In this document: piece after piece, positions 4,448 to 54,435 of the stretch | Numbering within the stretch: the stretch's first letter is position 1 | How the letters are laid out: the number at the start of each line of letters is the position of its first letter | Source of the DNA: Polaromonas jejuensis NBRC 106434 | GTDB lineage: Bacteria > Pseudomonadota > Gammaproteobacteria > Burkholderiales > Burkholderiaceae_C | Direction of reading: 5' to 3' | Length of the DNA: 64,000 nucleotides | Assembly: GCF_001598235.1 (NCBI RefSeq) | Contig: NZ_BCYO01000004.1 | Coordinates: 186,001 to 250,000 of the forward strand | Made by a program: the position numbers and the translations under genes | Notes under the pieces: generated by a model | What the model saw: only the letters and a program-made list of their open reading frames with translations | Database searches by the model: none | What the model was told of the DNA's origin: nothing

Positions 4448-5802
4448 ACGGTGTGCCGACGGGGCCGCTGGCTCTGCCGGACTGCGTGCCACAGCAGGCC
4501 CAGCAGGCAGGTCGCCACCAGGCCAATGGCCAGGGTGCTGGCGGCCCAGAAACTGCTGGCCGACTGCATGGCCGCCATGCCCGCAATGCCTTTGTAGGCC
4601 AGCTGGTAACCGCCAAACAGGCCCAGCCCCCAGAGCAGCACGCCATACAGCGCCAGCGGCGTGATCGTGATGCGGTAGCAGCGCAGCAAAAAGGCGCACA
4701 GCGCCTGCGTGGCATCGGCCACGTGATAGAAGGCCACCCATACCAGCAGCGATGAGGCCAGGACGACGATCTCGGGGTTGCCGGAATACCAGCTTGCCAG
4801 CAGCGGGCCTGCTACCGAAACAATAGCTGCCAGCCCAAGTGCGGAAAGGGTTGTAAGCTTTAAAGCCATAAAAACTACACGCCTGGCGTAGTCCGGCCGG
4901 CCAGCGCCCAGCCAGAACGACACGCGGGCGCTGCAGGCGATGGCCATGGACAGCGGCATCATGTAGAGCACTGCCGCCACACTGGCCGCGATCTGGTGGC
5001 TGGCGGAGGCGACGGTCCCCAGCCGGGCAATGAACAGGGCCATGAGGGTGAAGGACGTCACCTCCACCAGGTAGGCCAGCCCGCCCGGGATGCCCAGCCG
5101 CACAAAATGGCCGATCTGCACCCAGTCGGGCCGCTCCATGAGGCGCCAGATGCGAAAGGGCCTGTACAGGTCTTGCGTGCGCAGCATCACCACACTCAAT
5201 AACAGCAGCATGTAGTTCACCGCCAGCGTGGCCCAGGCGCAGCCCACGGCGCCCATGGGTTCCACACCCGCGCCGCCAGCGACCAGCCAGACCGACAGCG
5301 GAATTTTGAGCGCCAGGGCGCCGACCTGGAGCCAGGTCACCAGCAGTGGTTTGCCGACGGATTGGTTGAAGGTGCTGTAGACCCGGAACAGCAGGGCAGG
5401 GGCAAACGCAAAGGCCAGCACGGTGAGGTAGCGCTGCACCTCATCGCGCATCAGCTCGGGCACTTGCGCCCAGCGAAGCAGCGGGCCGGGAAACAGCAGC
5501 GCGGCCATGCCCGCTGCGGTGATGAAGCCGCACAGGTAAAGGCTTTGCCGCAAGGAACGCCCGACGGCTTCATGCTGGCGGGCGCCCAGCATCTCGGCCC
5601 AGATGGGGAGCAGCGCCTGCACAACGCCCATCAGCGCCACGTAAACACTGACGTAGAGAGCCGAGCCCACCGACAAGGCGGCCAGTGCCGCGTCGCTGTG
5701 GCGGCCGGCAATCACGGTATCCGCCACACCAAAAGCCATGACGGCCAGCTGGCCGACCAGCACCGTGCCGGCATGCCGGGTGATGATCTTGAGTTCGCTC
5801 AC
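4435..5802 (-). CDS. MATE-family multidrug/Na+ efflux protein
   Basis: This is a 455-residue polytopic inner-membrane protein with about 12 hydrophobic segments and the MATE architecture. The N-terminal half has AVMAFGVADTVIAGRHSDAALAA and VQALLPIWAEMLGA; the second half repeats the pattern (IPGGLAYLVEVTSFTLMA). Members export cationic compounds by Na+ or H+ antiport; the substrate here cannot be read. The start is GTG at 5802, inside the stop of the upstream glycosyltransferase (GTGA overlap), so the two are translationally coupled. A stretch at about 4811-4868 is AT-richer and contains a copy of the dispersed GCTAY-N7-RNAGC element; it encodes part of a membrane segment in the second half. 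Confidence 0.88.
   Translation of the reverse strand: MSELKIITRHAGTVLVGQLAVMAFGVADTVIAGRHSDAALAALSVGSALYVSVYVALMGVVQALLPIWAEMLGARQHEAVGRSLRQSLYLCGFITAAGMAALLFPGPLLRWAQVPELMRDEVQRYLTVLAFAFAPALLFRVYSTFNQSVGKPLLVTWLQVGALALKIPLSVWLVAGGAGVEPMGAVGCAWATLAVNYMLLLLSVVMLRTQDLYRPFRIWRLMERPDWVQIGHFVRLGIPGGLAYLVEVTSFTLMALFIARLGTVASASHQIAASVAAVLYMMPLSMAIACSARVSFWLGAGRPDYARRVVFMALKLTTLSALGLAAIVSVAGPLLASWYSGNPEIVVLASSLLVWVAFYHVADATQALCAFLLRCYRITITPLALYGVLLWGLGLFGGYQLAYKGIAGMAAMQSASSFWAASTLAIGLVATCLLGLLWHAVRQSQRPRRHTVQAA
4811..4868. repeat. Intragenic copy of the GCTAY-N7-RNAGC element (MATE gene)
   Basis: The core at 4811-4827 is GCTAC, a 7-nt spacer, then ATAGC. The following GCCAGC, AAAGGG and CTTTAA blocks resemble the extended copies in the AddA-like gene and in moeA. 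The reading frame of the MATE gene is maintained through it. Confidence 0.6.
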
Positions 5803-7589: not shown

Positions 7590-7660
7590 AACGGTGAGGC
7601 GATCAGTAAAGGGGCTGGTTCTGATTGGTAGGCGAAACAGTGTCGCCAAATTTTGCCGAA

Positions 7661-7690
7661 AAAAAAGCAGCCTGAATTTCAGGCTGCTTT
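7661..7690 (-). terminator. Rho-independent terminator of rpmE2
   Basis: A perfect inverted repeat (GCAGCCTGAA / TTCAGGCTGC) lies about 30 bp after the rpmE2 stop and is followed on the minus strand by a run of eight T residues. Confidence 0.9.
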
Positions 7691-7720
7691 TTGCTGGCCA
7701 GCGCAAGCGCTTTTTGCAGC

Positions 7721-7978
7721 TTACTTGGCAGCGGTCTTGCCGAAGCGGTTGCGGAATTTCTCAACGCGACCACCCATGTTGTCCACGGATTTTTGCGTGC
7801 CGGTGTAGAAGGGGTGCGATTCGCTGGACGTATCGAGCTTGTACAGAGGCAACTCGCGACCGTCTTCCATTTTCACCATTTCTTTGGTGTTCACGCAGGA
7901 GCGGGTCACAAACTTGAAGTTGTTGGACAGGTCCAGGAAACAAACTTCGCGGTAGTTGGGGTGAATGCCTTCTTTCAT
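7721..7978 (-). CDS. rpmE2: 50S ribosomal protein L31 type B
   Basis: This 85-residue L31 belongs to the zinc-independent type B class. It starts [14 protein letters not shown], has the type-B insertion around [17 protein letters not shown], and lacks the CxxC pairs of zinc-binding L31. The start follows AAGGAAAG. It is the last gene of the trxA-rho-rpmE2 block and is followed by a clear intrinsic terminator. Type B L31 often replaces the zinc form under zinc limitation; no Zur site could be recognised here. Confidence 0.96.
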
Positions 7979-8063: not shown

Positions 8064-8080
8064 GCTATAGATAGGATAGC
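8064..8080. repeat. GCTAY-N7-RNAGC element between rho and rpmE2
   Basis: Perfect arms GCTAT and ATAGC are separated by 7 nt. The element lies in the 165-bp gap between rho and rpmE2, next to the GC-rich element that abuts the rho stop. Confidence 0.75.
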
Positions 8081-10099: not shown

Positions 10100-10118
10100 G
10101 GCTATCGCCGCGATAGCC
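10100..10118. repeat. GCTAY-N7-RNAGC element in the trxA/addB divergent promoter region
   Basis: GGCTATCG, CCG, CGATAGCC: an 8-bp perfect palindromic stem that embeds GCTAT and ATAGC with 7 nt between them. It lies between two divergent genes, so an operator is possible, but its membership of the dispersed family makes the repeat explanation more likely. Confidence 0.7.
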
Positions 10119-10174: not shown

Positions 10175-12727
10175 ATGCCGCTTCCAGACCCTGCCGACGT
10201 CCCGCTTTCCACCCGCTGTTGGCAGCAAGCCATCGTCCGGCTCCACGAGGCGCTGCAGGCGCGCGGCGTGCACCCTGCCGAAGTGGTGGTTCTGCTGCCC
10301 TATGCCCAACTGATCCAGCAGGCGCGCCAGGCCTGGGCCAGGGAGGCCGGCGACACATTCTTCGTGCCGCGTTTTGAAACCACCATGAACTGGGCCAGCA
10401 GCCTGGGCGGCACGCTCGGGCTGTTCACCCCTTCGGGCGATGATTTGCGCATGGATGTGGCCGTGGACATGCTGACGGCCGCATCGCTCTTGAGCCGCGC
10501 CGGCCTGGCGAGCCACCAGGACATCCTGGCCGGGCAACTGGTCGAGGCCGCCTGGAGTCTGGCCCGCGTGGCGGCGGCGGTGCTGCCCGACAAGCGCCAG
10601 GCCTGGAGCGAGCAACTGGCGGCTTCGCTGGGTGCCGGCCTGGATTCGCCGGTGCTGGCCCTCGAGGCCGCGTTGGGGCGCATTGCGCTGGCCTGGGCGG
10701 CGGCGTCCGCCTATCCCACCGACCGTCTTTTCCAGGCCAGTCCCGCGCTCTTTGCCGTGCTCGATGGCTTTCAGGCCGAACCGCTGACTGAGGCGCTCAA
10801 GGCGCATTTTGGCGCGCGGGCCATCTCCATTCCTCTGGGCATTTCCCTGGATGGCGCGGAGACGGAGCGCGCACCTGTGCCTGCCTTGCACGCCGCGCTG
10901 GATGCCGAAGACGAGGCCGAGCGCGCCGCCGCCTGTGTGCTGGCGCAGCTGGCGCAAGGGCGCTGCCCGGTCGCACTGATTGCGCAAGACCGGCAGCTCA
11001 CGCACCGTGTCAGCGCCATGCTGGCAGAGCGCGGCATCGCCATGCGCGACGAAACCGGCTGGAAGCTGTCCACCACGCGCGCGGCGGCCGGCCTGATGGG
11101 CTTGCTGCGCGCCATGCCCTGGGACGCCTCGACCGACGCCGTGCTGGACTGGCTGAAAAACGCGCCCGCATTTGCCGCCAGCGCGGTGACCGCGGCTGAA
11201 ACCGAATTGCGCAAGCTCGGCCTGCGTGCCTGGCGCGACTTGCCCGTGACGCCCTTGCCCGCGCTGGCCGCCACCCAGCCGCTGGCCGTGAGGGTCAATG
11301 CGCTGCGCGAAGGCTTTGTTCGCGCACGTCCCCTGGCCATGTGGTTGCGCGATCTGCGCACTGCGCTGCGGTCGGCCGGGCAGTGGGAGGCGTTGGAACT
11401 CGATGAGGCCGGCCAGACCGTGCTGGACGTGCTGCGCCTGCATGAAGGCGCCGAGGCCGAGTTTGAAACCTCTCCCACCATGAAGCTGCGCGACTTCACC
11501 AGCTGGGTCAATCAGACGCTGGAGGCCGGCAAGTTTTCCCCGGCCCATCCGCCGCAAGAGCAGGTGGTGATCCTGCCGCTGGCGCAGTTGCTGGGCCGGC
11601 CCATGCAGGCGGTGGTGCTGCCCGGCTGCGATGAAATCCGTCTGCCGGTGTCGCCCGAGCCCCCTGGCCAGTGGACGCCAGTCCAGCGCGAGTTGCTCGG
11701 CCTGGCCTCGCGTGAAACGCTGGCCAGCGCGGCCCGGCAGGCCTGGGGCTACGCCCTGCGGCTGCCGCAGGTGGATGTGCTGTGGCGTACCAGCGAGGGC
11801 GGTGAGCACCTGATCGCCAGCGGCTTTGTGCAGGAGCTGCTGCTGGCGCATGAACTGGACACGGCCACAGCCCTGGCGAGCGACCCGCGCAGCCTGCGCG
11901 CCGTGGCCGTCAGCCCCACGCCGCGCCCGCTGCCGACGGGCGCGGACTTGCCGGTAGCCAAGCTGTCGGCCAGTGCCTATGAAGATTTGCGCCGCTGCCC
12001 CTACCGCTTTTTTGCGCTGCGCCAGCTCAAGCTGCAGGCGCCCGACGAACTGGAGAGCGAGCTGGGCAAGCGCGACTTCGGCAACTGGCTGCACAGCCTG
12101 TTGAACTATTTTCACGAAGACCTGAAGGCGGCGCCAGCCCAGGATATTCCTGCTCGGCTAGCTATGATTAATATAGCGGCCGAGCGCGCCACGCAGGAAC
12201 TGGGCCTGAGCGACAGCGAGTTCCTGCCGTTCGCCGCCGCCTGGCCGGGCGTGCGCGACGGCTACCTGGCCTGGCTGGCCGGGCACGAAGCCTCCGGCGC
12301 CGCCTATGAGGCCGGAGAAATCTGGCGCGAAATCCCCCTGGGCGCGCTGACCCTGGTGGGCAAGCTGGACCGCATCGATAGGCAGGCCGATGGCCACGCG
12401 CTGGTGATGGACTACAAGACCGAGCCGCGCGCCACCACGGCCCAGCGCATCAAGGACGGCCAGGAAGACACCCAGCTGGCGTTTTATGCGGCCCTGATGG
12501 CCGATGACACCTTGGCCGCGGCCTATGTCAACGTCGGCGAAAAAGAGCCGACGCGTACCTATGAACAGCCCGACATCGTGAGCCTGCGCGATGAGTTGAT
12601 AGACAGCATCCAGAGCGACATGGCGCGCATTGCGCGCGGCGCGGCGCTGCCCGCGCTGGGCGAAGGCAAGGCCTGCGAGTACTGCGCGGCGCGCGGCCTG
12701 TGCCGCAAGGATTTCTGGACAGCATGA
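10175..12727 (+). CDS. AddB-like inactivated helicase/PD-(D/E)XK nuclease
   Basis: This 850-residue protein is the likely second subunit of an AddAB-type recombination enzyme. Such enzymes resect double-strand ends for RecA and degrade foreign linear DNA. The N-terminal two thirds resemble a helicase fold without an intact Walker A. The C-terminal nuclease shows KLDRID and VMDYKTEP (D and DxK catalytic residues) near residue 750. A cysteine in LRRCPYRFF near residue 607, with three more in KACEYCAARGLC near the C-terminus, matches the 4Fe-4S staple of AddB nucleases. The AddA-like helicase follows after a 170-bp repeat-bearing gap. The ATG at 10175 has no strong ribosome-binding site. A GCTAT-N7-ATAGC element is in frame near residue 665. 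Confidence 0.88.
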   Translation: MPLPDPADVPLSTRCWQQAIVRLHEALQARGVHPAEVVVLLPYAQLIQQARQAWAREAGDTFFVPRFETTMNWASSLGGTLGLFTPSGDDLRMDVAVDMLTAASLLSRAGLASHQDILAGQLVEAAWSLARVAAAVLPDKRQAWSEQLAASLGAGLDSPVLALEAALGRIALAWAAASAYPTDRLFQASPALFAVLDGFQAEPLTEALKAHFGARAISIPLGISLDGAETERAPVPALHAALDAEDEAERAAACVLAQLAQGRCPVALIAQDRQLTHRVSAMLAERGIAMRDETGWKLSTTRAAAGLMGLLRAMPWDASTDAVLDWLKNAPAFAASAVTAAETELRKLGLRAWRDLPVTPLPALAATQPLAVRVNALREGFVRARPLAMWLRDLRTALRSAGQWEALELDEAGQTVLDVLRLHEGAEAEFETSPTMKLRDFTSWVNQTLEAGKFSPAHPPQEQVVILPLAQLLGRPMQAVVLPGCDEIRLPVSPEPPGQWTPVQRELLGLASRETLASAARQAWGYALRLPQVDVLWRTSEGGEHLIASGFVQELLLAHELDTATALASDPRSLRAVAVSPTPRPLPTGADLPVAKLSASAYEDLRRCPYRFFALRQLKLQAPDELESELGKRDFGNWLHSLLNYFHEDLKAAPAQDIPARLAMINIAAERATQELGLSDSEFLPFAAAWPGVRDGYLAWLAGHEASGAAYEAGEIWREIPLGALTLVGKLDRIDRQADGHALVMDYKTEPRATTAQRIKDGQEDTQLAFYAALMADDTLAAAYVNVGEKEPTRTYEQPDIVSLRDELIDSIQSDMARIARGAALPALGEGKACEYCAARGLCRKDFWTA
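12161..12177. repeat. Intragenic GCTAY-N7-RNAGC element (AddB-like gene)
   Basis: GCTAT, 7 nt, ATAGC with perfect arms, AT-rich against its GC-rich surroundings and read in frame as part of LAMINIA. Confidence 0.75.
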
Positions 12728-12896: not shown

Positions 12897-15800
12897 ATGA
12901 CCGCCGCCTACGAACGCAACGGCCAGCCCATTTCAGCCGAGGCGTTTTACGCCATCGCCTGCGACCCGCGCCGCAGCGTGGCGGTGGAGGCCTGCGCCGG
13001 CGCGGGCAAGACCTGGATGCTGGTGTCGCGCATCGTGCGCGCGCTGCTGGATGGCGCGGGCGCTGCGCAGGACCCGGTGCGCCCGCACGAAATCCTGGCC
13101 ATCACCTTCACCAAAAAGGCCGCCGGCGAAATGCGCGAGCGGCTGGACGAATGGCTCAAGGACTTTGCCCGTGCCGACGACGCCACCCTGCAGCGCGAGC
13201 TGGTCCTGCGCGGCATGACAAGCCAGATCGGCCCGCAGGCCAATCAGGATGTGCGCCGCCAGCTATCAAATTTATACCGATCGATTTTGACCAGCGGCCG
13301 CTCGGTGCAGATCCGCACCTTCCACAGCTGGTTTGCCGCCTTGCTGCGCAGTGCGCCCGTGGCGGTGCTGCAAAGGCTGGGCCTGCCGGTCAATTACGAG
13401 CTGCTGGAAGACGACGCCCCGGCCCGGGCGCTGGTGTGGCGGCGCTTTTATGCGCAGGCTGTGGGCGATGCCTCGCTCCAGGCCGACTTTGAGGCCGTGG
13501 TGCGCGCGCATGGCCGCTTTCAGACCGACAAGGCCCTGCAGGCCGCGCTGGACAAGCGCACCGAGTTCACGCTGGCCGATGAGCAAGGCGTGGTCGACGC
13601 TTCCGTGCAAGCCTTTGGCGAGCAGTTTCCCGAGTTTGCCGGGCTGGATGCGCCCGAAGAGGCGCTCACCAGGCTCTCCAACCAGCAGTTGCTGCTGGCG
13701 GCCGCCAAGGCCCTGGGCCGGGCCAGCGCGCCGACCTTTTCGGCCAAGGGCGTGGAGCTGGAGCAGGCCTTGACGGCGCAAGACCTGCCAGGCGTTTTCA
13801 GCGCGCTGCTGACCGACAAGGGCACGGCGCGCAAATTCGGCGAAAAAATCGTGGGGATTGAAGACGTGCGCCAGGCCCAGGACCTCGTGCTGCGCGTGCA
13901 GGCCGCCAGCCAGCAGTACGAGGCCTGGGTGCATCAGCAGCGCATGGCGCGGCTGGCGCGCGCCGTGATTGCGCAGTTCACCGCCCTCAAGCGCGAGCGC
14001 GGCTGGGTCGACATGAACGATGTGGAGCGGGCCGCGTTGGTCATGCTGGGCGATCCGGTGCTCTCGGGCTGGGTGCAGGAGCGGCTGGACGCGCGCATCA
14101 AGCACCTCATGATTGACGAGTTCCAGGACACCAACCCGCTGCAGTGGCAGTCGCTTTACGCCTGGCTGGTCGGCTATGCCGGCGCGGGCTCGGCGCCCAG
14201 CGTGTTTCTGGTGGGCGATCCCAAGCAAAGCATTTACCGCTTCCGGCGCGCCGAGCCGCAGGTGTTTCGCGCCGCGCAGCAGTTTGTGGTGCAGGGCCTG
14301 GGCGGTGATTTGCTCAGCTGCGATCACACCCGGCGCAACGCCGAGGCCGTGATCGACACCGTGAACGCCGTCATGGGTGCGGCGCGGGCCGCCGATGGCT
14401 ACGACGGTTTTCGCGATCACAGCACGGCCTCCGATCGGGCCGGCGCGACGGGGTGCTTGCCGCCCATTCCGCGCGCCAGCGATGAAGACGCGCAGGCCCC
14501 GCCGGCCGACGGCTGGCGCGACAGCCTGAGCACGCCGCGCGAGCTGCCCGAAGAGACCCTGCGCACCCTGGAGGCGCGCCAGGCCGCCGCCTGGATATCC
14601 CGGCAACTGGTGGATGGCCTCAAACCACAAGACATCATGGTGCTGTCGCGCAAGCGCGCCGGCCTGCTGCCGCTGCAGGAAGAGCTGCGGGCCTTGCACA
14701 TTCCGGCGCAGATCGGCGAAAAAACCGATCTGATCGACTGCTGCGAGGTGCTGGACCTGGTGGCGCTGCTGGATGTGCTGGTGTCGCCGCAGCACGATTT
14801 GTCGTTGGCGCGCGCGCTGCGTTCGCCGCTGTTTGGGCTGGCCGACGCCAGCCTGGTGCAGATCGCGCTGCTGCAACGTGAACTGAATATTTCGTGGTAC
14901 GAGGTGCTACAAAAAACAGAGCTTCTGGCGCCTGAACTGCAAGGGCTGGGGCCTGTTTTGACCCGATGGAAGGGCTGGATAGACGGCCTGCCGCCGCACG
15001 ACGCACTGCAGAGCATTTACCACGACGGCGATGTGCTGGCCCGCTTCGTCGCGGCGGCGCCTGCGGTTCAGCGCAGCGCCGTGCTGGCGAATTTGCGGGC
15101 GCTGCTGGGCGTGGCCCTGGCGCGTGATGGCGGGCGCTACGCCACGCCCTATGGCCTGGTCCGCGCCCTCAAGGCCGGTGGCACGCTGGCGCCGGCCAGC
15201 GTCAGCACCGAGGCGGTTCGACTGCTGACGATTCACGGTGCCAAAGGTCTGGAGGCCGAGGCCGTGCTGCTGCTGGACACCGACACGGTGGAGCGCAACG
15301 CCGACAGCATGGGCGTGCTGGTGGATTGGCCCGGCGAGGCCACCGCACCGCGTAAATTCTTTTTCATGGTCAGCGAAAGCCGGCCGCCGGCCTGCGCCCA
15401 AGGGGTGCTGGCCAATGAGCAGGCGGCACGCCAGCGCGAAGAACTCAATGCGCTGTATGTGGCCCTGACGCGGGCCCGCCATACGCTGGTGGTCTCGTCG
15501 ATTGAGCCGCACCGGGCCACCACCGACAGCTGGTGGCAGCGCCTGCACGGCCTGGTGACCGAACTGGCGGCGCCGGTCGCCGTGGATACCGTTCAGGCAG
15601 CAGAATCCGACGGCCGCGACACCCGTGTGTTTCACCTGCCCGAGCTGCCCGCCTTGCCGGCCACGCTGGTGCCCGATGCGCCCGCTGCTGCGGCCGAGGC
15701 TGAAGACTCCGCCGATGCCCGCATAGGCAAGGCCATGCACCGCCTGCTGGAGTGGGGCGGGCCGTTTGCGGCGCCGCAGGTGGCCGCGGTGGCGCGCGAG

Positions 15801-16824: not shown

Positions 16825-16902
16825 CTGCAATAATCTAGCCCTTCCCGCAAACCGGCTGGGGCCGGCCCTGGCTGCGGATTCAAAGCATTTTTGCATGGCA
16901 GC

Positions 16903-16941
16903 CCTTATGGAACGGGCGCAACCAGCTATCAAATAAAGAGC
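16903..16941. repeat. GCTAY-N7-RNAGC element upstream of the BaiN-like flavoprotein
   Basis: The core GCTAT, CAAATAA, AGAGC is at 16925-16941. Its left flank, starting CTTATGGAACGGGCGC, matches the left flank of the copy at 53069 (CTTATAGAACAGGCGC). Confidence 0.8.
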
Positions 16942-17030
16942 GAAATGGCACGCCTGGCTTTGGCCGGTGATGCCGCTTATGCTTGGCCATTGTTGACTCA
17001 ACTTGCACACGTGTGCAGACGGATTTTCTT

Positions 17031-18317
17031 TTGAACGACTCAATTTCTCCTGTTCAGCTGGTGACGCCGCGGCGCATTGCCGTCATAGGCGGCGGCCCGG
17101 CCGGCCTGATGGCGGCCGAGGTGCTGGCCGGCGCCGGCCCGGCCGTGGCGGTAAAGGTCTATGACGCCATGCCTTCGGTGGGCCGCAAGTTCTTGCTGGC
17201 CGGCAAGGGCGGGCTCAACCTCACGCATTCCGAGGCGATAGAGCCCTTCATGGGCCGCTACGGCGAGCGCCGTGCGCAACTGCAGCCGCTGATCGCCGCG
17301 TTCGGTCCGGCCGAGCTGCGCGCCTGGGCCGAAGCCCTGGGCGTGGAAACCTTTGTCGGCAGTTCGGGCCGCGTGTTTCCCAAGGACATGAAGGCCGCGC
17401 CGCTGCTGCGCGCCTGGCTGCAACGCCTGCGCCATGCCGGCGTGCAGTTTTCCATGCGGCATCGCTGGCTGGGCTGGGCCGAAGCCGGCGAGGGCCAGGG
17501 CGCGCTGAAGTTTGCAACGCCCGCCGGCGAGGTGCTGGCGCAGGCCGATGCCGTGGTGCTGGCCCTGGGCGGCGGCAGCTGGGCGCGCCTGGGTTCCGAC
17601 GGCGCCTGGGCGGCGTTGCTGGCAGCACGCGGCGTAGCCGTGGCTGCGCTGCAGCCTTCCAACTGCGGTTTTGATGTGGCCGGCTGGAGCGAACATTTCG
17701 CCAGCCGCTTTGCCGGCCAGCCCTTCAAGTCGGTCGCCATCCATTTCACCGATTCACGGGGCCGCAGCTTCAGCCGCAAGGGCGAGTTTGTGGCCACTGC
17801 CACGGGCGTGGAGGGCAGCCTTGTCTATGCCGTGTCCAGCCTGCTGCGCGACGAGATTGCCGCGAAGGGCAGCGCGAGCTTCATGCTCGATCTCTTGCCG
17901 GACAAATCACCGGAGCAGGTGCTGGCCGAGGTGCGCCATCCGCGCGGCTCGCGCTCGCTGTCCAGCCACCTCAAGAGCCGTTTGCACCTGGACGGCATCA
18001 AGGCCGCCATGCTGCATGAACTGCTGGGCAAGGAGGACATGGCCGATCCCGTCAAACTCGCCGCCGGCATCAAGGCGCTGACGGTGCGCGTGATGGCCGC
18101 CAGGCCCATGGACGAAGCCATCAGCAGCGCCGGCGGCGTGATGTTTGAGGCCATGGATGCGCAGCTGCGGCTCACGGCGCCTGCCGCAGCCCAGCCGGTG
18201 TTTTGTGCCGGCGAAATGCTCGACTGGGAGGCGCCCACGGGCGGCTACCTGCTCACCGCGTGTTTTGCCAGCGGGCGCGCCGCCGGGCTCGGTGTTTTGA
18301 ACCATTTAGGCCTGTAG
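17031..18317 (+). CDS. BaiN/HI0933-like FAD-dependent oxidoreductase (TIGR03862-type)
   Basis: This is a flavoprotein of about 428 residues. The Rossmann FAD motif RIAVIGGGPAGLMAAEVLA is at the N-terminus. The HI0933-family signature GRKFLLAGKGGLNLTHSE follows near residue 50. VLALGGGSWARLGSDGA and the C-terminal FAD contact WEAPTGGYLLTACFASGRAAG are also present. Physiological substrates of this family are mostly unknown. The start is uncertain: no ATG with a ribosome-binding site is visible. The TTG at 17031 and GTG at 17061 are both in frame, and the upstream TTG at 16983 lies close to a repeat. Confidence 0.82.
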   Translation: MNDSISPVQLVTPRRIAVIGGGPAGLMAAEVLAGAGPAVAVKVYDAMPSVGRKFLLAGKGGLNLTHSEAIEPFMGRYGERRAQLQPLIAAFGPAELRAWAEALGVETFVGSSGRVFPKDMKAAPLLRAWLQRLRHAGVQFSMRHRWLGWAEAGEGQGALKFATPAGEVLAQADAVVLALGGGSWARLGSDGAWAALLAARGVAVAALQPSNCGFDVAGWSEHFASRFAGQPFKSVAIHFTDSRGRSFSRKGEFVATATGVEGSLVYAVSSLLRDEIAAKGSASFMLDLLPDKSPEQVLAEVRHPRGSRSLSSHLKSRLHLDGIKAAMLHELLGKEDMADPVKLAAGIKALTVRVMAARPMDEAISSAGGVMFEAMDAQLRLTAPAAAQPVFCAGEMLDWEAPTGGYLLTACFASGRAAGLGVLNHLGL

Positions 18318-18340
18318 CCCAATCAGCATAGGCGCAAGAA

Positions 18341-18357
18341 GCTATTTATTTGATAGC
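18341..18357. repeat. GCTAY-N7-RNAGC element after the BaiN-like flavoprotein
   Basis: Perfect arms GCTAT and ATAGC flank 7 nt, preceded by GCATAGGCGCAAGAA, which resembles the GGCGCAACCA left flank of other copies. Confidence 0.8.
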
Positions 18358-18389
18358 GTTTAATTTTTACCGAATGCCGGAGTTTTGCC

Positions 18390-22239: not shown

Positions 22240-22558
22240 GTCTTTTCCCTTGCTTGAATTTCGAGGAAGTGACATAGGCAAGTGATACGGAAAAGTGGTC
22301 TAAGACCTTGATTTCGCTTAAGTTGTTGAAACTTAAGGAATTCTTTGATGTAAGGTGACGAGCCTTGACCCCGGCACTGGCTCCACAGTTAGGGCTGCTT
22401 GGTTCCCCACCTGACCCGGTTGGCCGCTTCACCATGCGGGAAGGCCCGTCAAGGTGAATTATAGCAAGGCCTTGAGGGTGGTTTGCGCCAAGCGGCCGCG
22501 CCGGCGGGCACAATCAGGGTTTCAACCCAGCAGTACAAAGCCGCACAAGGACGTTCCC
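22240..22558. other. Intergenic region between integrase remnant and ParA gene
   Basis: The first 100 bp are AT-rich, with short TTAAG/CTTAAG repeats around 22318-22341. The rest is GC-rich. An open frame overlaps the ParA start, but it has no recognisable similarity. I saw no tRNA or other attachment-site gene here. Confidence 0.5.
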
Positions 22559-23393: not shown

Positions 23394-25226
23394 ATGTCCT
23401 ACCTAGTTCTTGCCCGCAAATACCGTCCCCGCAATTTCTCTGAAATGGTGGGGCAGTCGCATGTGGTGCAAGCCCTGGGCAATGCGCTGAGCACCGGGCG
23501 CCTGCACCATGCCTACCTGTTCACCGGCACGCGGGGCGTGGGCAAGACCACGGTGTCACGCATCCTGGCCAAGTCACTCAATTGCACCGGCATTGACGGG
23601 CAGGGCGGCATCACGGCCGAGCCCTGCGGCGTGTGCCAGGCCTGCCAGGATATCGACAGCGGCCGCTTTGTGGACTACACCGAGCTGGACGCGGCGTCCA
23701 ACCGCGGTGTGGATGAAATTGCGCAGCTGCTGGAGCAGGCGGTGTACAAGCCCGTCGTCGGCCGCTTCAAGGTCTTCATGATCGACGAGGTCCACATGCT
23801 CACGAACACGGCGTTCAACGCCATGCTCAAGACGCTGGAGGAACCCCCCGAATACCTCAAGTTTGTGCTGGCCACGACCGACCCGCAAAAGGTGCCGGCC
23901 ACGGTGCTGTCGCGCTGCCTGCAGTTCAACCTGCGGCCCATGGCGCCCGAGACGGTGCTCGAGCATTTGACGCAGGTGCTGGGCACTGAAAACGTCTCGG
24001 CCGAACCACAGGCCCTGCGCCTGCTGGCCCGCGCGGCGCGCGGCTCCATGCGCGATGCCTTGTCGTTGACCGATCAGGCGATTGCATTTGGCTCCGGCCA
24101 GTTGCAGGAGGCCAGTGTGCGCACCATGCTGGGCAGCGTGGACCGCAGCTACGTGTTCCGCCTGCTGGATGCGCTGGCGCGCGGCGACGGAAAGACGGTG
24201 GTCGAAACCTCCGAAGCCCTGCGTCTCAACGGCCTGAGCGCCGCGTCAACGCTGGAAGAAATGACGACCGTGCTGCAGCGCATGGCCGTGCTGCAGGCTG
24301 TGCCCGAGCTGGGGGCCGGCGATGACGACGCCGACCCCGAGATTGCCGAGACGGCAAGGCTGGCCCACACCCTGCCGGCCGATGAAACCCAGCTGCTCTA
24401 CAGCCTGTGCCTGCATGGCCGCGGCGAGCTGGGTCTGGCGCCCGACGAATACGCGGCGCTGACCATGGTGCTGCTGCGCCTGCTGGCCTTCAAGCCCTCG
24501 ACGGCGACGGCCGCCGTGCTCCCCACCCGGACACAAACCCCTTTGCCGGGGAGTGCCGCCGAGCCCCCAAAAAAGCCTGAGCCGGCCCACGCCGGCGCGC
24601 CTGCTGTGCTGCACCGGCCCATGGCCCAACCGGCGCCAGAACCGCTGGCGGAGCGCACACCTGAGCCCGCCTTTGTCGAAGTTCCTGAACAAAATGAGGT
24701 GCTAGCCCAGGCAGATAGGGCGCCTTTAGCTATCAATTCAGAAGCGCCGCTGGAGCCTTCTGGCGCACCCGCGCAAGTTTCGCAGCCGGCGGTGCCAACC
24801 ATCGCAGCGCCGCTGGCCAGCACCCCGCTTGGCGATGCCTGGAGCGCGACGGTGAACCAGCTGGTGGCGGCTGAGGCGGTAGCGGCACTGACGCGCGAAG
24901 TGGCCCTGCAGTCCGAGTTGCGCAGCCAGACCGATGGCGTGTGGACCTTGCGCGTGGAGCGCGAATCACTGAGCCAGGCGGCTGCCCGCGAAAAACTCCA
25001 GACGGCGCTGCAGATTGCGCTGGCCGACCCCGTCATCAAGCTGGTGGTGGAAGTGGGCCCCGTGACGGATACGCCTGCGCGCCGCAACGCCGCGGCGCAG
25101 GCCGAGCGCCAGCGCGCCGCCGAAGAGATGATTCAGAACGACCCGTTTGTGCAGGACATGATCCGCGACTGGGGCGCCAAAATTGTCCCCGGCAGCATCA
25201 AGCCGGTCGCCGCCAAGCCGATATGA
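23394..25226 (+). CDS. dnaX: DNA polymerase III subunit tau (and probably gamma)
   Basis: This is the clamp-loader ATPase, 610 residues for tau. Walker A is GTRGVGKT (residues 45-52). The zinc module uses C64, C78, C81 and C84 (EPCGVCQAC). Walker B is VFMIDEVHML near residue 125, and the SRC sensor motif is in VLSRCLQFNLRP. A Pro/Ala-rich linker from residue 380 leads to the tau-specific C-terminal domain. At codons 393-394 the sequence A AAA AAG is followed by a -1 frame TGA and a GC hairpin; slippage would yield a gamma product of about 395 residues. The linker also holds a GCTAY-N7-RNAGC-like element (24729-24745). It heads the dnaX-ybaB-recR group. Confidence 0.97.
   Translation: MSYLVLARKYRPRNFSEMVGQSHVVQALGNALSTGRLHHAYLFTGTRGVGKTTVSRILAKSLNCTGIDGQGGITAEPCGVCQACQDIDSGRFVDYTELDAASNRGVDEIAQLLEQAVYKPVVGRFKVFMIDEVHMLTNTAFNAMLKTLEEPPEYLKFVLATTDPQKVPATVLSRCLQFNLRPMAPETVLEHLTQVLGTENVSAEPQALRLLARAARGSMRDALSLTDQAIAFGSGQLQEASVRTMLGSVDRSYVFRLLDALARGDGKTVVETSEALRLNGLSAASTLEEMTTVLQRMAVLQAVPELGAGDDDADPEIAETARLAHTLPADETQLLYSLCLHGRGELGLAPDEYAALTMVLLRLLAFKPSTATAAVLPTRTQTPLPGSAAEPPKKPEPAHAGAPAVLHRPMAQPAPEPLAERTPEPAFVEVPEQNEVLAQADRAPLAINSEAPLEPSGAPAQVSQPAVPTIAAPLASTPLGDAWSATVNQLVAAEAVAALTREVALQSELRSQTDGVWTLRVERESLSQAAAREKLQTALQIALADPVIKLVVEVGPVTDTPARRNAAAQAERQRAAEEMIQNDPFVQDMIRDWGAKIVPGSIKPVAAKPI
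24569..24596 (+). promoter_or_regulatory. Programmed -1 ribosomal frameshift site in dnaX
   Basis: The slippery heptamer A AAA AAG (24569-24575) is in the correct zero frame (CCA AAA AAG). After a -1 slip the next codons are GCC and TGA (24578-24580). Five nucleotides after the heptamer a perfect 6-bp stem GCCGGC/GCCGGC with a 4-nt loop begins (24581-24596). Heptamer, spacing and immediate stop mirror the E. coli dnaX site. I did not find the upstream Shine-Dalgarno-like stimulator that E. coli has. Confidence 0.8.
24729..24745. repeat. Intragenic GCTAY-N7-RNAGC element (dnaX linker)
   Basis: GCTAT, CAATTCA, GAAGC: one mismatch to the right arm. It sits in the poorly conserved Pro/Ala linker of tau and is read in frame (LAINSEA). 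Confidence 0.55.
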
Positions 25227-28092: not shown

Positions 28093-29013
28093 ATGCCCCC
28101 ATTTGCCACGCCTGCGCCCAACGGGTGCGCCCTTGAGCTGCTCGACATCTGCTGCACCTTCCGCTCGCGGGAGGATGCGGGCCAGCGCTATGCCGCCGTC
28201 AGCAACACCACGCTGCGCATCAACGCCGGCGAGTTCGTCTCGGTGGTCGGCCCAACAGGCTGCGGCAAGTCCACGCTGCTCAATATTGGCGCTGGTCTGC
28301 TGGCGCCTTCTTCGGGCGCGGTGAGGGTGTTTGGCCAGGCTTTGCACGGCATCAATGCGCGCGCGGGCTATATGTTCCAGAGCGACGCGCTGATGCCCTG
28401 GCGCAGCGCCCTTGAAAACGTCATGCTAGGCCTGCAATACCGCGGCGTGCCCGACGGCGAGGCCAGATCCCAGGCGCAGGCCTGGCTGGCGCGCGTGGGT
28501 CTGGGTGATTTTGGCGATCGCTACCCGCACCAGCTCTCGGGCGGCATGCGCAAGCGCGCGGCGCTGGCGCAGGTTCTGGCACTGGACCCCGACATCATCC
28601 TGATGGACGAGCCCTTTAGTGCGCTGGACATCCAGACGCGTCAGCTCATGGAAAATGAAGTGCTGGATTTGTGGGCCGGCCCTGGGGAGGGGCGCCGGGC
28701 CGCCCCAAGGCCCGAGCCAACCCCCTCGGGGGGTGGACGCGCAGCGGCCGGGGGCTCATACGCCAGGAAGGCCGTGTTGTTCATCACCCATGATCTGGAC
28801 GAAGCGATTGCCATGAGCGACCGCGTCGTGGTGCTCTCGGCCGGTCCCGGCACGCACCCCATGGGCGAATTCATCATCGACCTGCCGCGGCCCCGTGATG
28901 TCGCGGAGGTACGCCATCAGCCGCGCTTTGTGGAGTTGCACACGCAGATCTGGAGCGTACTGCGCGACGAAGTGCTCAAGGGCTACGCACAGCAGTTGAA
29001 GACGGCCGCTTGA
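28093..29013 (+). CDS. NitT/TauT-type ABC transporter ATPase with an in-frame insertion
   Basis: This 306-residue nucleotide-binding subunit has Walker A VGPTGCGKST near residue 55, signature LSGGMRKRAALAQ near residue 150, Walker B IILMDEPFSALD near residue 170, and H-loop LFITHDLDEAIAMSD near residue 230. Between Walker B and the H-loop, where relatives read straight from DLWA to RKAVLFITHD, there are about 29 extra residues (196-224). They are rich in Gly, Pro, Arg and Ala and encoded by a copy of the GC-rich repeat. All catalytic motifs remain and the frame is intact. The stop overlaps a possible TTG start of the permease. Confidence 0.9.
   Translation: MPPFATPAPNGCALELLDICCTFRSREDAGQRYAAVSNTTLRINAGEFVSVVGPTGCGKSTLLNIGAGLLAPSSGAVRVFGQALHGINARAGYMFQSDALMPWRSALENVMLGLQYRGVPDGEARSQAQAWLARVGLGDFGDRYPHQLSGGMRKRAALAQVLALDPDIILMDEPFSALDIQTRQLMENEVLDLWAGPGEGRRAAPRPEPTPSGGGRAAAGGSYARKAVLFITHDLDEAIAMSDRVVVLSAGPGTHPMGEFIIDLPRPRDVAEVRHQPRFVELHTQIWSVLRDEVLKGYAQQLKTAA
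28678..28766. repeat. GC-rich element, copy 4, inside the ABC ATPase gene
   Basis: GGGCCGCCCCAAGG, CCCGAGCC, CCCCTCGGGGGGTGG, CGCGCAGCGGCC, GGGGGC: the same block order as the copies beside rho and the SDR gene. It is a multiple of three in net effect, giving an in-frame insertion of about 29 codons. Confidence 0.8.
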
Positions 29014-38416: not shown

Positions 38417-39772
38417 TTAAATGGCGCCGTCGAACATCATCACGTCGACCTCGTCGCCCACGGCCACATTGCCCTGGGCGTGGTGCAGCACCATCAAGCC
38501 ATTGGCCTCGGCCATGGAGCGCAGCACGCCAGAGCCCTGGCTGCCGGTGGTTTTGACCACCAGGGAACCATCGGCTGCCGTGGCAACCCAGCCGCGCTGG
38601 TATTCGGTGCGGCCCGGCTTCTTGCGGATGGCTTCGCTGCTGCGGGCCTTGAGCAGCGGCGCCGGTGCGGCGCTGGCGCCCATCATCTGCAGCAGGGCGG
38701 GGCGCACAAAAGCCAGGAAAGTCACCATCACGGCCACCGGATTGCCGGGCAGGCCGAACAGAATCGCGCCATGGGTGTTGCTATTCTTTTTGTAGCTTAT
38801 TGCGCCCGTTGTTCCTGGGGTTGAGGCTGATTTTGTTGCTAATATGCGCCCCACGGCCATGGGGCGGCCGGGCCGCATGGCAATGCGCCAGAACGCCACA
38901 TCGCCGAGCTTTTTCATCATCGTCTTGGTGAAATCGGCTTCACCCACGCTGACGCCGCCCGAGGTGATGATGGCGTCGGCCTCGGCCGCCGCGCGGGTGA
39001 ACGCCGCTTCCAGCAGGGCCGGGTCGTCGCGCACCACGCCGAGGTCAATAACCTGGCAGCCCAGGCGGCTCAGCATGCCGAAGACGGTGTAGCGGTTGCT
39101 GTCGTAGACGGCGCCTTCGCGCGGTGCCTCGCCCAGCGACAAAATCTCGTCACCGGTTGAAAAGTAGGCCACGCGCAGCGGCCGCCAGCATGGAAGGGTT
39201 TTAAGGCCCAAAGAGGCCGCCAGCCCAAGTCGCGCGGGCGTGATTAGCTCACCTTTTCGTAGCGCCGGCTGGCCCTGCATGAGGTCCTCGCCGCGCAGGC
39301 GGCGGTTGTCGCCGGCACGCAGCAGGCCGGGCGGAATGCCGATGCGGCTGCCTTCATCGGCCGTGTCGGACGGCAGCCGCTTGACGAATTCCTGCGGCAC
39401 CACCGTGTCCGCGCCCGGCGGCATGATGGCTCCGGTCATGATCTTGACGCACTGGCCGGCCTGGACGCTGCCTTGCCAGGCTGTGCCCGCCAGCGCCGTG
39501 CCCACCACCTGCAGTTCCAGCGCGGCATCCGCCTTGAGCTGTTGGCCGTCAAACGCATAGCCATCCATGGCCGAGTTGTCGTGGGGCGGCACATCAAAGG
39601 GCGAAATCACGTCTTCCGCCAGCACGCGGCCCAAGGCTTCGAACAAGAGCCGTTCGACGGCGTCCTGTACCGGCGTCACCAGCCGGGACAAAAAAGCCTG
39701 CACATCGGCGGCGGACAGGGCCTGCGGGTCGTAGCCCTCTAGCTCGGCGGCAATCTGGTCGAGTGTTTTCAT
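38417..39772 (-). CDS. moeA: Molybdopterin molybdenumtransferase MoeA
   Basis: MoeA inserts molybdate into adenylylated molybdopterin. The 451 residues show FDVPPHDNSAMDGYAF near residue 60, the MoCF-domain motif TSGGVSVGEADFTK, the metal-site region ATRPGRP-like AMRPGRPMAVGRI, and FGLPGNPVAVMVTF. Between GRI and GAILFGLPGNP there is an extra stretch of about 22 residues, Ser/Thr/Lys/Asn-rich, encoded by a copy of the dispersed repeat (38780-38836). A second copy lies at 39247. It is 8 bp downstream of mobA in a moaA-mobA-moeA group. Confidence 0.95.
   Translation of the reverse strand: MKTLDQIAAELEGYDPQALSAADVQAFLSRLVTPVQDAVERLLFEALGRVLAEDVISPFDVPPHDNSAMDGYAFDGQQLKADAALELQVVGTALAGTAWQGSVQAGQCVKIMTGAIMPPGADTVVPQEFVKRLPSDTADEGSRIGIPPGLLRAGDNRRLRGEDLMQGQPALRKGELITPARLGLAASLGLKTLPCWRPLRVAYFSTGDEILSLGEAPREGAVYDSNRYTVFGMLSRLGCQVIDLGVVRDDPALLEAAFTRAAAEADAIITSGGVSVGEADFTKTMMKKLGDVAFWRIAMRPGRPMAVGRILATKSASTPGTTGAISYKKNSNTHGAILFGLPGNPVAVMVTFLAFVRPALLQMMGASAAPAPLLKARSSEAIRKKPGRTEYQRGWVATAADGSLVVKTTGSQGSGVLRSMAEANGLMVLHHAQGNVAVGDEVDVMMFDGAI
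38780..38836. repeat. Intragenic GCTAY-N7-RNAGC element with extended tail (moeA)
   Basis: The core GCTAT, TCTTTTT, GTAGC is followed by TTATTGCGCCCG, CCTGGGG and GAGGCTGATTTTG. It is AT-richer than the gene and coincides with a stretch absent from typical MoeA. The tail matches the second copy in the AddA-like gene. Confidence 0.75.
39247..39263. repeat. Second intragenic GCTAY-N7-RNAGC element (moeA)
   Basis: Read on the minus strand: GCTAC, GAAAAGG, TGAGC. The spacer is again exactly 7 nt; the right arm has one mismatch to ATAGC, as with the AGAGC arm elsewhere. Confidence 0.5.
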
Positions 39773-46916: not shown

Positions 46917-47323
46917 TTTGCTTCAAATCGGTCCAGGGCCAGGTGCCTGGGAAATGATGGCGAAAAATGGCTCTAGCCCAATGTAGTCGGGCGCAGGTAG
47001 CTATCAATCCTGTAGCGACCTAGGGTTTACGTGGGCGCGCTGTCGGCAAAAGCAGAAAAGCGGCCGCAGCGGCCCGTGCCGCTAAAACCGTCAGGCAACC
47101 ATGTCCGCTTGTCTGAACGATTTCACTTCATCGCTTTGTTGATGGGGCAGGACATCCGCTCTTCCCATTCGCCGCTGCCGTCCCAGATAGTGGGACTCCA
47201 TCCGATGTGCTGGGGCAAGCACTCTTGATGCCCGCCCAGCCCTGATCTCAAAATGAACGCGCGTCCATAAAGGTGCACGACCGCCATGGCGTTCAGTTTT
47301 CAACCAGTGAGACAAACATCGGC
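46917..47323. other. Divergent intergenic region between ALDH and UxuA-like genes
   Basis: The 400 bp must hold promoters for both genes. It contains one GCTAY-N7-RNAGC element (core 47000-47016). No other palindrome comparable to the GntR-associated one was found, and I see no gene in it apart from possible alternative starts of the UxuA-like gene (GTG at 47273). Confidence 0.5.
46989..47016. repeat. GCTAY-N7-RNAGC element upstream of the UxuA-like gene
   Basis: GCTAT, CAATCCT, GTAGC, preceded by GGCGCAGGTA, which resembles the GGCGCAACCA flank of other copies. Confidence 0.7.
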
Positions 47324-50977: not shown

Positions 50978-51316
50978 CAGCCATCACTTTCGACTGTGCG
51001 ATCAGATTACTCCGATCGCCGGTCTGGCTCAAGCCGCTTGCGAAAAAATACCTTCAGCCGGCGTGCCCTCGCTGGAAGCCATGGCCGTGACCGTTGCGCG
51101 CAGCGGCGCGCTGGATGCCCACCCCCCCCAGGCAGCGACGCCGGTGCGGGCGGGTGGCGGTACCAGGGCGGCAGCGCAGCGACCGCAGCCGGCCGGCAGC
51201 CGGCGATGTGGAGCCGCGGCGGGCGAGACGAATGCGTTGCGGTCGGGGAATACCGATGTGTGAGCGTCTGGCCGCCGCGCACAAATGCCGCAGAAGCCCA
51301 CGGCGGTGATCCGCCG
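50978..51316. other. Intergenic region without a supportable gene
   Basis: About 340 bp of very GC-rich sequence with open frames in several registers but no recognisable protein. A plus-strand frame reads PSLEAMAVTVARSGALDAHP at 51061-51120, possibly a remnant. No repeat or terminator was identified. Confidence 0.4.
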
Positions 51317-52696: not shown

Positions 52697-52983
52697 GGCT
52701 TTCTCCTTGGCGTCTTCCACAGTGTCAATTGCCGCGCAGGCTGCAGGACGCGCAGCGGACGGTGCGGCGGCGGATCAATTGCCCCGGTTGATGCACGTGG
52801 CGAAGGGCACATTTCGCGCCTTGGCCCGGACCCGTTACCGGGTGACTCCTTATTTTCCCCCAATCGCAAAAATTGCTCGCACGGGCACGCACGGACAGGA
52901 AATTCAGGCGCCCCAGGCAAAGTATCAGACCGGCCTCCATCGGGACGCCGCCTTGTTGCTACCCGGCCATTACTTTCGCATCA

Positions 52984-53046
52984 AGCTTTTCACCGGCTGA
53001 GCAGGCGCTGGCGTGGGCGGCGGACAAGGCGGAGTTCGGGCAATGA
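52984..53046 (+). pseudogene. 3' remnant of a second enolase-superfamily dehydratase
   Basis: The codons read SFSPAEQALAWAADKAEFGQ and stop. The intact gene ends GFSLSEQALAWTAEKAAFGK. The match starts abruptly at 52984, so a recombination event has removed the rest. It is followed by a Bug paralogue, as the intact copy is preceded by one. Confidence 0.8.
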
Positions 53047-53068
53047 GAAGTCAAATCGGCCGCCGGCC

Positions 53069-53110
53069 CTTATAGAACAGGCGCAACCAGCTATAAAAAA
53101 TATAGCTACT
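53069..53110. repeat. GCTAY-N7-RNAGC element with left flank
   Basis: The core GCTAT, AAAAAAT, ATAGC (perfect arms) follows the flank CTTATAGAACAGGCGCAACC. The same flank occurs at 16903. Confidence 0.85.
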
Positions 53111-53112
53111 TT

Positions 53113-53337
53113 TTATGCGCTCTCGTGCTCAATGATCTGGAGCCCCGGGTCCGTCACCTGCGGCACGGCCACCGGCTTGCGTTCATCATCGAGCGCCACC
53201 ATCGTGAAGCAGCCGCTGTGGGTGCGTTGGAAAATGCACCGGTCACTTTATGGTTTTGGTGGATGGCCAGGGTTCGAGCCCCTGCCTTTGTGTGCAAGGG
53301 CTGCTCTAACAATTGGCGAAACGGCGATGCCATGTGA
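53113..53337 (-). pseudogene. Acyl-CoA thioesterase-like remnant
   Basis: The minus-strand frame near the 3' end reads RCIFQRTHSGCFTMVALDDE, then RKPVAVPQV, and stops at 53113. This resembles the C-terminus of hotdog-fold acyl-CoA thioesterases. Upstream, an ATG at 53337 opens MASPFRQLLEQPL and ALAIHQNHK-like TLAIHQNHKVTGAF in another frame, so at least one frameshift separates the two parts. Most of the hotdog domain is missing. Confidence 0.5.
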
Positions 53338-53451
53338 CGGTCATCGCAGTGCCCAGGCTGCCTGTGCGCTGGCGACGATCATCCCTGATCCGTGGATCAG
53401 GACACGGAAACCCATGGATTGGCGCGTCAGCACCGCATGGGCTTGGCAGGC

Positions 53452-54435
53452 TTATTCGGCCTTGATGCCCGCCGTCTTGATCACCTTGGTCCAGCGTGCT
53501 TCTTCACTCTTGACAAAGGCCGTGTAGGCTTTGGAGCCCAGCGGCGGCACCACAAAGCCCTGCGATTCCAGCCGTTGCTTCACAGTGTCAGACTGCAGGG
53601 CCTGAACCATGGCGGCTTCGAGCTTGTCGATGATGGGCTGGGGCGTTCCTTTGGGGGCCGAAAGGCCGGACCAGGACAGTGCTTCAAAGCCCTTGTAACC
53701 GGACTCGGCCACGGTCGGCACGTCGGGGTACAGCGGATTGCGCTGGGCACTCGTGACGGCCAGGGCGCGCAGCTTGCCGGCCTTGACGTGCTGCAGTGCC
53801 ACGTCCTGGTTGATGAACATGATCTTGATCGTGCCACCCAGGATGTCGACCATCATCGGGCCGCCGCCACGGTAGGGAATGCCCAGCATGAAGATGCCGG
53901 CGGTCTGCTTGAACTGCTCCATCGCCATGTGGCCCGAGGCGGCCGGCGTGTAGCCGTAGTCCAGCTTGCCCGGATTGGCCTTGGCGTAGTCCACCAGTTC
54001 CTTCAGTGTCTTGAATGGCGTGCTCGGATGGACCACCAGCACATTGGGGCCGGAATGGACCTGCGAAATGTGAATGAAGTCGGTGTTCGAGTTGTACTTC
54101 AGGTTGGGGTCCAGCCCGTGGGCGACGGCGCTTTGGCCGACACCGGTCTGAGTCAATGTGTAGCCATCGGGCGCGGACTTGGCGCCCCGCTCCGTGCCAA
54201 TCACGCCGCCGGCGCCGCCGACGTTGTCGACGATGAAGGGCTGCTTGAGAATTTTCCCGAGTTGCTCGGCCATCAGGCGTCCCATCACGTCACTGGTGCC
54301 ACCGGCCGGGAAGGGCACGATGATCCTGACCGGCTTGTTGGGGTAGTCCGTCTGGGCCCATGTGGCCCCTCCGAATGCTATAAAACCGATAGCTGCACAC
54401 GCCATTTTTACAAGGGTAAGACGCCTGTTTGACAT
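53452..54435 (-). CDS. Bug/TctC-family periplasmic binding protein (copy 2)
   Basis: This 327-residue paralogue of the protein at 48446 has a signal peptide ending near GGATWAQ. The same signatures appear: VRIIVPFPAGGTSDVMGR, NVGGAGGVIGTE and FINQDVALQHVKAGKLRALA. It lacks the two-cysteine insertion. The signal-peptide coding region contains a perfect GCTAT-N7-ATAGC element (54377-54393, coding for AAIGFIA). An RraA-like gene lies upstream on the same strand, so the two may be cotranscribed. Confidence 0.9.
   Translation of the reverse strand: MSNRRLTLVKMACAAIGFIAFGGATWAQTDYPNKPVRIIVPFPAGGTSDVMGRLMAEQLGKILKQPFIVDNVGGAGGVIGTERGAKSAPDGYTLTQTGVGQSAVAHGLDPNLKYNSNTDFIHISQVHSGPNVLVVHPSTPFKTLKELVDYAKANPGKLDYGYTPAASGHMAMEQFKQTAGIFMLGIPYRGGGPMMVDILGGTIKIMFINQDVALQHVKAGKLRALAVTSAQRNPLYPDVPTVAESGYKGFEALSWSGLSAPKGTPQPIIDKLEAAMVQALQSDTVKQRLESQGFVVPPLGSKAYTAFVKSEEARWTKVIKTAGIKAE
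54377..54393. repeat. Intragenic GCTAY-N7-RNAGC element (Bug signal peptide)
   Basis: Perfect arms GCTAT and ATAGC flank 7 nt; the element is read in frame inside the hydrophobic core of the signal peptide. Confidence 0.75.

Follow-up and report, generated by a model that had tools for sequence, protein, structure and literature searches.

A 64,000-nucleotide stretch of the genome of Polaromonas jejuensis NBRC 106434 (contig NZ_BCYO01000004.1, positions 186,001 to 250,000), here called the window, contains many copies of a short interrupted palindrome, GCTAY-N7-RNAGC, which lie both between and inside genes. The locus raises the question of what this repeat is and how it came to lie within the coding sequences of ordinary proteins. 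The palindrome proved to be one end of a rigid motif of about 70 bp, which is maintained in duplex DNA at hundreds of chromosomal sites.

The palindrome and the 70-bp motif

A preliminary description of the window had listed fourteen palindromes with an invariant 7-nt spacer, and proposed comparison with shuffled sequence. Both the excess and the fixed spacing were confirmed. The pattern occurs at 13 distinct sites in the window, giving 22 matches on the two strands where 1.10 are expected; the maximum in 100 shuffled sequences was 6. A 7-nt spacer was seen in 13 cases, and none of the other lengths between 0 and 20 gave more than 2. In 864 kb of the genome, 45 GCTAT/ATAGC pairs were found at spacer 7 and no more than one at each other length from 0 to 30, and the whole genome contains 258 exact GCTAT-N7-ATAGC sites as against 1 for the reversed control.

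The suggestion that the element is larger than the palindrome also held. When an extended consensus was built as a position weight matrix from copies in the source genome, a single oriented motif was obtained that reads nntTTnnnagnnAAAtngGcCtcnAGCCCangnngnacGGGCGCaancAGCTATnaAatnnATAGCgant and covers positions -49 to +20 relative to the start of the palindrome, beyond which there is little signal. The flanks that some palindromes had been seen to share are real and are parts of its left two thirds. Copies were anchored on the GC at one end of the core and accepted at matrix scores above 20 bits, a threshold on which the counts depend. By this measure 111 copies were found in the 864 kb and 52 in an independent 397 kb unused in training, with none in the reversed sequence in either case; extrapolation from 163 in 1.26 Mb gives about 660 copies per genome. 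Spacing within the motif is equally strict. In the 1.26 Mb AGCCC-N20-GCTAT occurs 60 times, with at most 5 at each other spacing from 10 to 31, and GGGCG-N6-GCTAY occurs 73 times, with at most 21 at each other spacing from 0 to 19. The motif is roughly symmetric about a GC-rich centre and has AT tracts about 10 bp apart.

Scoring with the matrix also altered the list of fourteen, in which 53089 should read 53090. The copies at 13262 and 39247 fall outside the pattern GCTAY-N7-RNAGC but are members of the 70-bp motif. Those at 8064..8080 and 10101..10117 match the pattern but stand alone in motif-free surroundings, and neither is among the 12 matrix copies of the window. A further site at 28367, absent from the list, fits the pattern yet lacks the 70-bp motif and is not a matrix copy either.

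Genes were called with a simple codon-usage script, and called genes made up 71-85% of four pieces of the genome. On these calls, 52 of the 111 copies are intergenic, 48 lie wholly in genes and 11 are at gene edges. The gene-internal copies are divided equally between sense and antisense (24 each), and 34 of the 48 are in phase 0, consistent with the earlier claim that coding copies occupy tolerable frames. Intergenic copies outscore genic ones (56.9 vs 49.3, P = 0.0007). The motif holds 54 bits of information where 14 would be needed to mark that many sites, the former value being somewhat inflated by the choice of copies by score. Distances between copies are indistinguishable from random, the smallest being 377 bp (C1) and 360 bp (C2). 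A strict sub-pattern of the motif matched 18 stretches among 2.9 million viral contigs.

The preliminary description had proposed a small hairpin, or a copying mechanism that requires one. No consistent Watson-Crick excess at stem positions was found in 100 copies from the source genome and 104 from P. glacialis and strain CG9_12, when the central dyad was tested in three registers together with the palindrome. The largest z within these was 2.2 (-27/-3, glacialis set). In the AT module, the pair -42/-38, which would enclose a loop of three bases, gave z 3.3, and the remaining values of 3.0-3.1 fall outside any stem. Positions 4 and 12 of the palindrome vary independently (TA 50, TG 28, CA 16, CG 4). 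As consistent stem covariation is lacking, the symmetry is best explained by recognition of the duplex by a protein. The equal use of sense and antisense orientations and the absence of base-pair covariation show that the motif acts at the DNA level. The proposed hairpin or copying step thus found no support, and motif-free coding orthologues are, moreover, of equal length (see below). An early impression of compensatory changes in Rhodoferax addB copies was set aside, dialect differences being the better fit.

Between orthologues the seven bases of the spacer, which for the most part vary freely from copy to copy, are near-identical (3% differences vs about 15% in the flanks); this value comes from 37 pairs at 84-91% identity (L056-L135) at few sites and no conclusion was drawn from it.

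Copies inside genes, dialects and distribution

At four coding sites of the window (moeA 39247, addB, addA 14906 and MATE) the motif lies in native sequence that can be aligned, and is stronger than the protein alone would require. Orthologues were located by their flanks and were not chosen for carrying the motif; each gapless one was recoded 500 times with synonymous codons and its motif score expressed as z. All 29 orthologues were gapless at moeA 39247, and 27 of them had z > 2. The corresponding figures for MATE were 14 of 14 gapless and 9 with z > 2 (9 also above 3). For addB, 56 of 60 orthologues were gapless, the other 4 being of different length, and 31 of the 56 had z > 2, while addA 14906 had 47 gapless orthologues, 42 with z > 2, and at least 12 more of other length. 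The highest z at any of the four sites was 8.7. These tallies are not P-values because the orthologues are not independent.

The excess follows the abundance of the palindrome in each genome. Where a genome has at least 50 exact cores, z > 2 was seen in 27 of 27 cases for moeA, 17 of 29 for addB, 25 of 25 for addA and 8 of 10 for MATE; where it has 22 or fewer, the counts were 0 of 2, 0 of 5, 2 of 5 and 0 of 2, or 2 of 14 overall (z 2.1 and 2.2). The two sets were joined by hand and cover genomes counted at either extreme. Among the core-poor genomes, JS666 (19 cores) gave z values of 0.8, 2.1 and 0.6 and CF318 (22 cores) gave 0.7 and 0.7. Intermediate genomes were mixed: L083 (34 cores) had z 6.5 at addB, and L129 (28 cores) had 3.4 at addB and 1.5 at MATE.

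Across the addB site an alignment was possible with 14 genomes of 0-4 exact cores, other genera included; at most 11 residues are missing in them and never the 23 of the motif. The comparison of occupied and empty sites that had been proposed earlier gave, at orthologous coding positions, motif-free sites of the same length and not 70-bp empty sites. Since motif-free coding orthologues are equally long, several copies must have arisen by substitution in place, through synonymous changes and others that the protein tolerates.

Comparison of genomes showed that the core is invariant while the centre changes genome-wide, giving dialects. The centre is AGCCC..GGGCGC in the source genome, TGCGCA..GTGCGC in P. 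glacialis and CG9_12, and TAGCCGGCGTATTTATTGCCTAAACAGCTAT in G031 and G249; Rhodoferax OV413 and G085 use still others. Five of these genomes are represented by 6-17 copies. A dialect reading GCTTAT-N5-AAGCGC-N4-AGCTAT is found in 30 of 200 family genomes with up to 94 copies, and the control columns are 0. Dialects also replace one another at orthologous positions. The MATE site reads CTGCGCTT in L069 and CG9_12 (L071) and CAACCCTT in the source genome, a dialect change in place. The moeA gene of L184 has TTTTGCGCA at the orthologous site, and in L134 the dialect of that genome is encoded in frame within addB, together with 8 additional residues.

Genomes with high counts all belong to one family, the Comamonadaceae. 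Of 200 genomes of this family, 55 (hand count) have at least 20 exact cores and most others have 0-7; in 146 genomes from different families of the order the counts, 0-10, resemble the control. The motif is absent or eroded in some lineages, and genomes of the same genus can differ (206 vs 1 and 92 vs 7 cores). Most other Polaromonas counted have 150-290 cores, with 484 in RGN.1, 52 in YR568, 7 in L092 and 101 in L104.

The plasmid sequence covered is poor in the motif. P. naphthalenivorans CJ2 has a conjugative plasmid, pPNAP01, with 2 copies in 350 kb; the densities of two related chromosomes, which stand in for CJ2's own, predict about 50. The first 50 of the 190 kb of pPNAP02 contain none. 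Both pPNAP01 copies are strong and lie in a BREX-2 cluster, at 186065-186134 and 187420-187489 (L284 36065-36134 and 37420-37489); perhaps this piece of the plasmid was taken from a chromosome. The two lie on either side of an ATPase gene that is situated between pglX and pglW; zorA and a Hachiman gene are also present on the plasmid.

Possible functions and known systems

The best explanation, to which we give an even chance of being correct, is that the motif is a signal in duplex DNA which a recogniser acting in trans has spread in place, most probably through selective uptake in natural transformation. A protein would recognise the motif and favour DNA carrying it; motif-bearing fragments would enter cells more often and recombine back into the chromosome, and the motif would accumulate wherever proteins tolerate it. 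The receptor could perhaps be a type IV pilus or competence protein. Such a drive predicts excess information, higher intergenic scores, concerted dialects, in-place spread and plasmid scarcity, and is therefore the best fit. A broader proposal, for which we would put the chance a little short of even, is that the Comamonadaceae mark their chromosomes with a multi-module 70-bp uptake signal with species dialects, and that a receptor complex reading or wrapping about 70 bp of duplex selects the DNA of kin. PMC4212676 describes selective, type IV pilus-dependent uptake of own DNA in Verminephrobacter eiseniae, a member of the same family; transformation by own DNA was lowered only a little by an excess of foreign DNA, from which the authors infer sequence specificity, and some Acidovorax are reported to be competent. 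If the proposal is true, a 70-bp signal would account for the selectivity described for Verminephrobacter and would extend self-recognition in transformation to a large environmental family; such a length would demand a different kind of receptor, and the dialects would predict partners in gene exchange. It would, to our knowledge, be the first such uptake system in the Burkholderiales.

Several observations weigh against selective uptake. With the strands assigned by GC skew, copies show a mild preference for the leading one (71:37, P = 0.0014, own pieces C1-C4), which is not expected of an uptake signal, although the preference is weaker in the independent set (30:21, P = 0.26). At one copy per about 7.7 kb, the motif is less dense than known uptake signals. 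We know of no uptake experiment with the motif. No receptor gene was found, and ComEC, present in 42 of 43 genome handles including element-poor genomes, does not discriminate. Known uptake signals are 9-11 bp long according to PMC4212676, whereas the present motif is 70 bp. The motif is missing at addB in 12 of 29 element-rich genomes (L058, L060, L062, L076, L077, L079, L081, L103, L119, L120, L128 and L130). Lastly, insertion or deletion also plays a part, both in the second moeA site, a loop at 38780 that is longer with the motif, and at intergenic copies, some of which differ between relatives by large length differences. In 27 of 30 Polaromonas moeA genes, the source gene included, this loop has 64-70 bp at the site and 24 score above 25; in L191, L195 and L198, from genomes with 19, 22 and 52 cores, it is 33-45 bp shorter and motif-free.

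Length differences were found by separate-flank searches at 18341, L114_4166, L116_12923, moeA 38780 and A156635. At 18341 the motif is present in relatives, and L086, L088, L092 and L095 have no intergenic space there; L088, L092 and L095 have 3-7 cores each. When 60 copies from 400 kb of P. glacialis were sought in 400 kb of CG9_12, 18 were placed, 16 of them at 63-71 bp. Of the two that were not, one is an intergenic copy lacking in CG9_12 and the other is an intergenic region where each genome has a copy, but in another position and on another strand. Single alignments of relatives at least 80% identical showed no clean 70-bp empty site, but such alignments hardly bridge a 70-bp gap. As intergenic copies differ between relatives in length or presence, insertions or deletions contribute outside genes, and some intergenic copies may have originated by insertion.

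The main alternative to selective uptake, which we regard as unlikely though worth taking seriously, is a binding site for a chromosome-organising or DNA-wrapping protein (a nucleoid protein, condensin loader or topoisomerase-type complex) selected site by site. The rigid 70-bp footprint, the rough symmetry about a GC-rich centre and the AT tracts about 10 bp apart would suit such a protein, as would the mild leading-strand bias, and plasmid scarcity also fits. Selection at each site does not, however, account readily for 54 bits where 14 are needed, nor for copy spacing no different from random; a genome-wide change of dialect would need hundreds of coordinated changes, and many lineages of the same family live without the motif. 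If this alternative were correct, the site would be unusually information-rich and would shape codon choice in housekeeping genes. A role as a transcription regulator site or terminator is very improbable: roughly half of the copies (52 of 111) do lie between genes, but gaps between convergent genes hold copies at least as often as expected (17 vs 11.2), gene-internal copies occur in both orientations and no T run belongs to the motif. A part in transcription initiation is likewise argued against in a passage of PMC5217627.

Origins by copying would explain other features. A mobile repeat inserted long ago and now drifting, such as a repetitive extragenic palindromic (REP) sequence with its REP-associated tyrosine transposase (RAYT), a miniature inverted-repeat transposable element or a Rickettsia-type palindromic element, is improbable. 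It would be in keeping with hundreds of similar dispersed copies, an intergenic copy missing from a relative about 90% identical and the longer moeA loop. The RAYT gene proposed as a check was indeed found, as a RAYT-like Y1_Tnp gene in 41 of the 43 genome handles (which include the same-genome pairs G039/G237 and G014/G248), and the two exceptions, G011 and G143, have 1 and 0 cores; it is also present in genomes with 1-22 cores, so a clean separation was not obtained. Insertion is contradicted at the four coding sites, which are gapless against motif-free orthologues, in the case of addB from other genera too. The lack of hairpin covariation, the retention of the motif through synonymous positions in orthologues and the presence of 2 copies in 350 kb of plasmid also speak against a mobile repeat. 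More doubtful still is homology-directed overwriting, in which an abundant single-stranded DNA with the consensus sequence, either excised or retron-like, would pair with sites of partial similarity and convert them. Concerted dialects would follow from it, and around 9378 the addB motif differs in 16 of 70 bases between the close relatives L063 and L058 (93%) while its flanks are 93-98% identical. The coding copies, however, keep the local protein framework and match the motif in parts only, as stepwise substitution would leave them.

The RAYT-like gene itself (about 240 residues, mostly single copy; G000:C6:194670-194996) is kept in nearly all Comamonadaceae examined, and no hairpin repeat has been tied to it.

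Among known systems, the closest likeness is to the DNA uptake sequences (DUS) of Neisseriaceae and the uptake signal sequences (USS) of Pasteurellaceae, which have many chromosomal copies on both strands, are scarce in foreign DNA, originate in place in permissive protein regions and combine a constant core with dialects. Here, overrepresentation on both strands, in-place substitution at four coding sites, a core with dialects and scarcity on one plasmid were found. DUS and USS are short (about 9-12 bp), whereas in the present motif, which is dyad-like and found in Burkholderiales, information is spread over 70 bp; it also has fewer copies than is typical of DUS and USS, and its role in uptake is putative. 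Dialects of DUS have been described (PMC3630211). The motif resembles REP/RAYT systems in its hundreds of palindromic copies per genome. It differs from them in that no hairpin is supported, 48 of 111 copies lie wholly in called genes, tested coding sites show no insertion and the Y1_Tnp gene occurs in element-poor genomes too.

Two fragments of the motif have been sighted before. Table 7 of Tong et al. (2017, PMC5217627) gives 125 copies of ATAGCT(N)22CAAAAG in the P. naphthalenivorans CJ2 genome and 114 of GCTTAT(N)5AAGCG in A. ebreus TPSY, listed separately as potential novel motifs without function. Compared in relatives of CJ2 and TPSY, these pairs match fragments of two dialects: the first occurs 5 and 4 times in 400 kb each of P. 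glacialis and CG9_12, with 0-1 at N = 20, 21, 23 and 24, and in 30 of 200 genomes the second keeps a constant distance from AGCTAT. The passages of that paper dealing with the pairs contain no joined 70-bp motif, dialects, evolution within genes or function. The paper also puts R. ferrireducens first among genomes in number of motif pairs (140), and these may be the present motif; passages on that organism in PMC2755013 mention no repeat other than CRISPR. A dispersed repeat called BRE is described in PMC3110155 from Polaromonas, Rhodoferax, Acidovorax and Bordetella, sometimes within genes. It is 75-91 bp at full length, 69% GC in Bordetella, often tandem and present in at most 29 copies; the 70-bp motif with its AT tracts and dispersed copies is set apart from it by that description rather than by sequence comparison. 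A literature search with exact 12-13-mers of the motif gave nothing relevant as judged by title and start of abstract, and further searches, with most subscription papers and preprints outside their scope, gave no joining of the two fragments and no account of the 70-bp motif, its dialects, codon writing or a link to uptake.

Individual copies in the window

The strongest of the 12 matrix copies, with a score of 68, is at 18292..18361 (+ strand), at the 3' end of an HI0933-like gene whose last codons are overlapped by the left AT module. Three copies, all on the + strand, are intergenic by the script gene calls: 16876..16945 (score 52), 46951..47020 (59) and 53041..53110 (67). The moeA gene holds two, one in its loop in the sense direction (38776..38845, - strand, score 67) and one antisense, formed largely via codon choice (39198..39267, +, 27). 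Further sense copies are found in the MATE gene (4807..4876, -, 37) and in the addB-like gene (12112..12181, +, 23), the latter with a strong right end and a weak left half.

The addA-like gene, whose nearest relatives are Polaromonas loci at 82-83% protein identity, has a sense copy at 13213..13282 (+, 42) that encodes ...QLSNLYR... and an antisense copy at 14902..14971 (-, 38). Most outgroup proteins are 4-5 residues shorter near the first of these. In dnaX, a sense copy at 24680..24749 (+, 47) lies between the Pfam matches for domain III and tau domain V, and the dnaX genes of L060 and L062 have the motif at the same place; a copy at 22392 of L071 was dropped as a dnaX site, as no DnaX is encoded there. 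The last copy, at 54373..54442 (-, 53), covers the start and the N-terminal, signal-peptide-like codons of a Bug/TctC gene (TctC by Pfam) in the sense direction.

A search of Rfam gave no match at E <= 1 between 16000 and 19000, and the only match in the window at the gathering score was to the RNA of the signal recognition particle. This is an ordinary small bacterial gene on the minus strand at 22354-22450.

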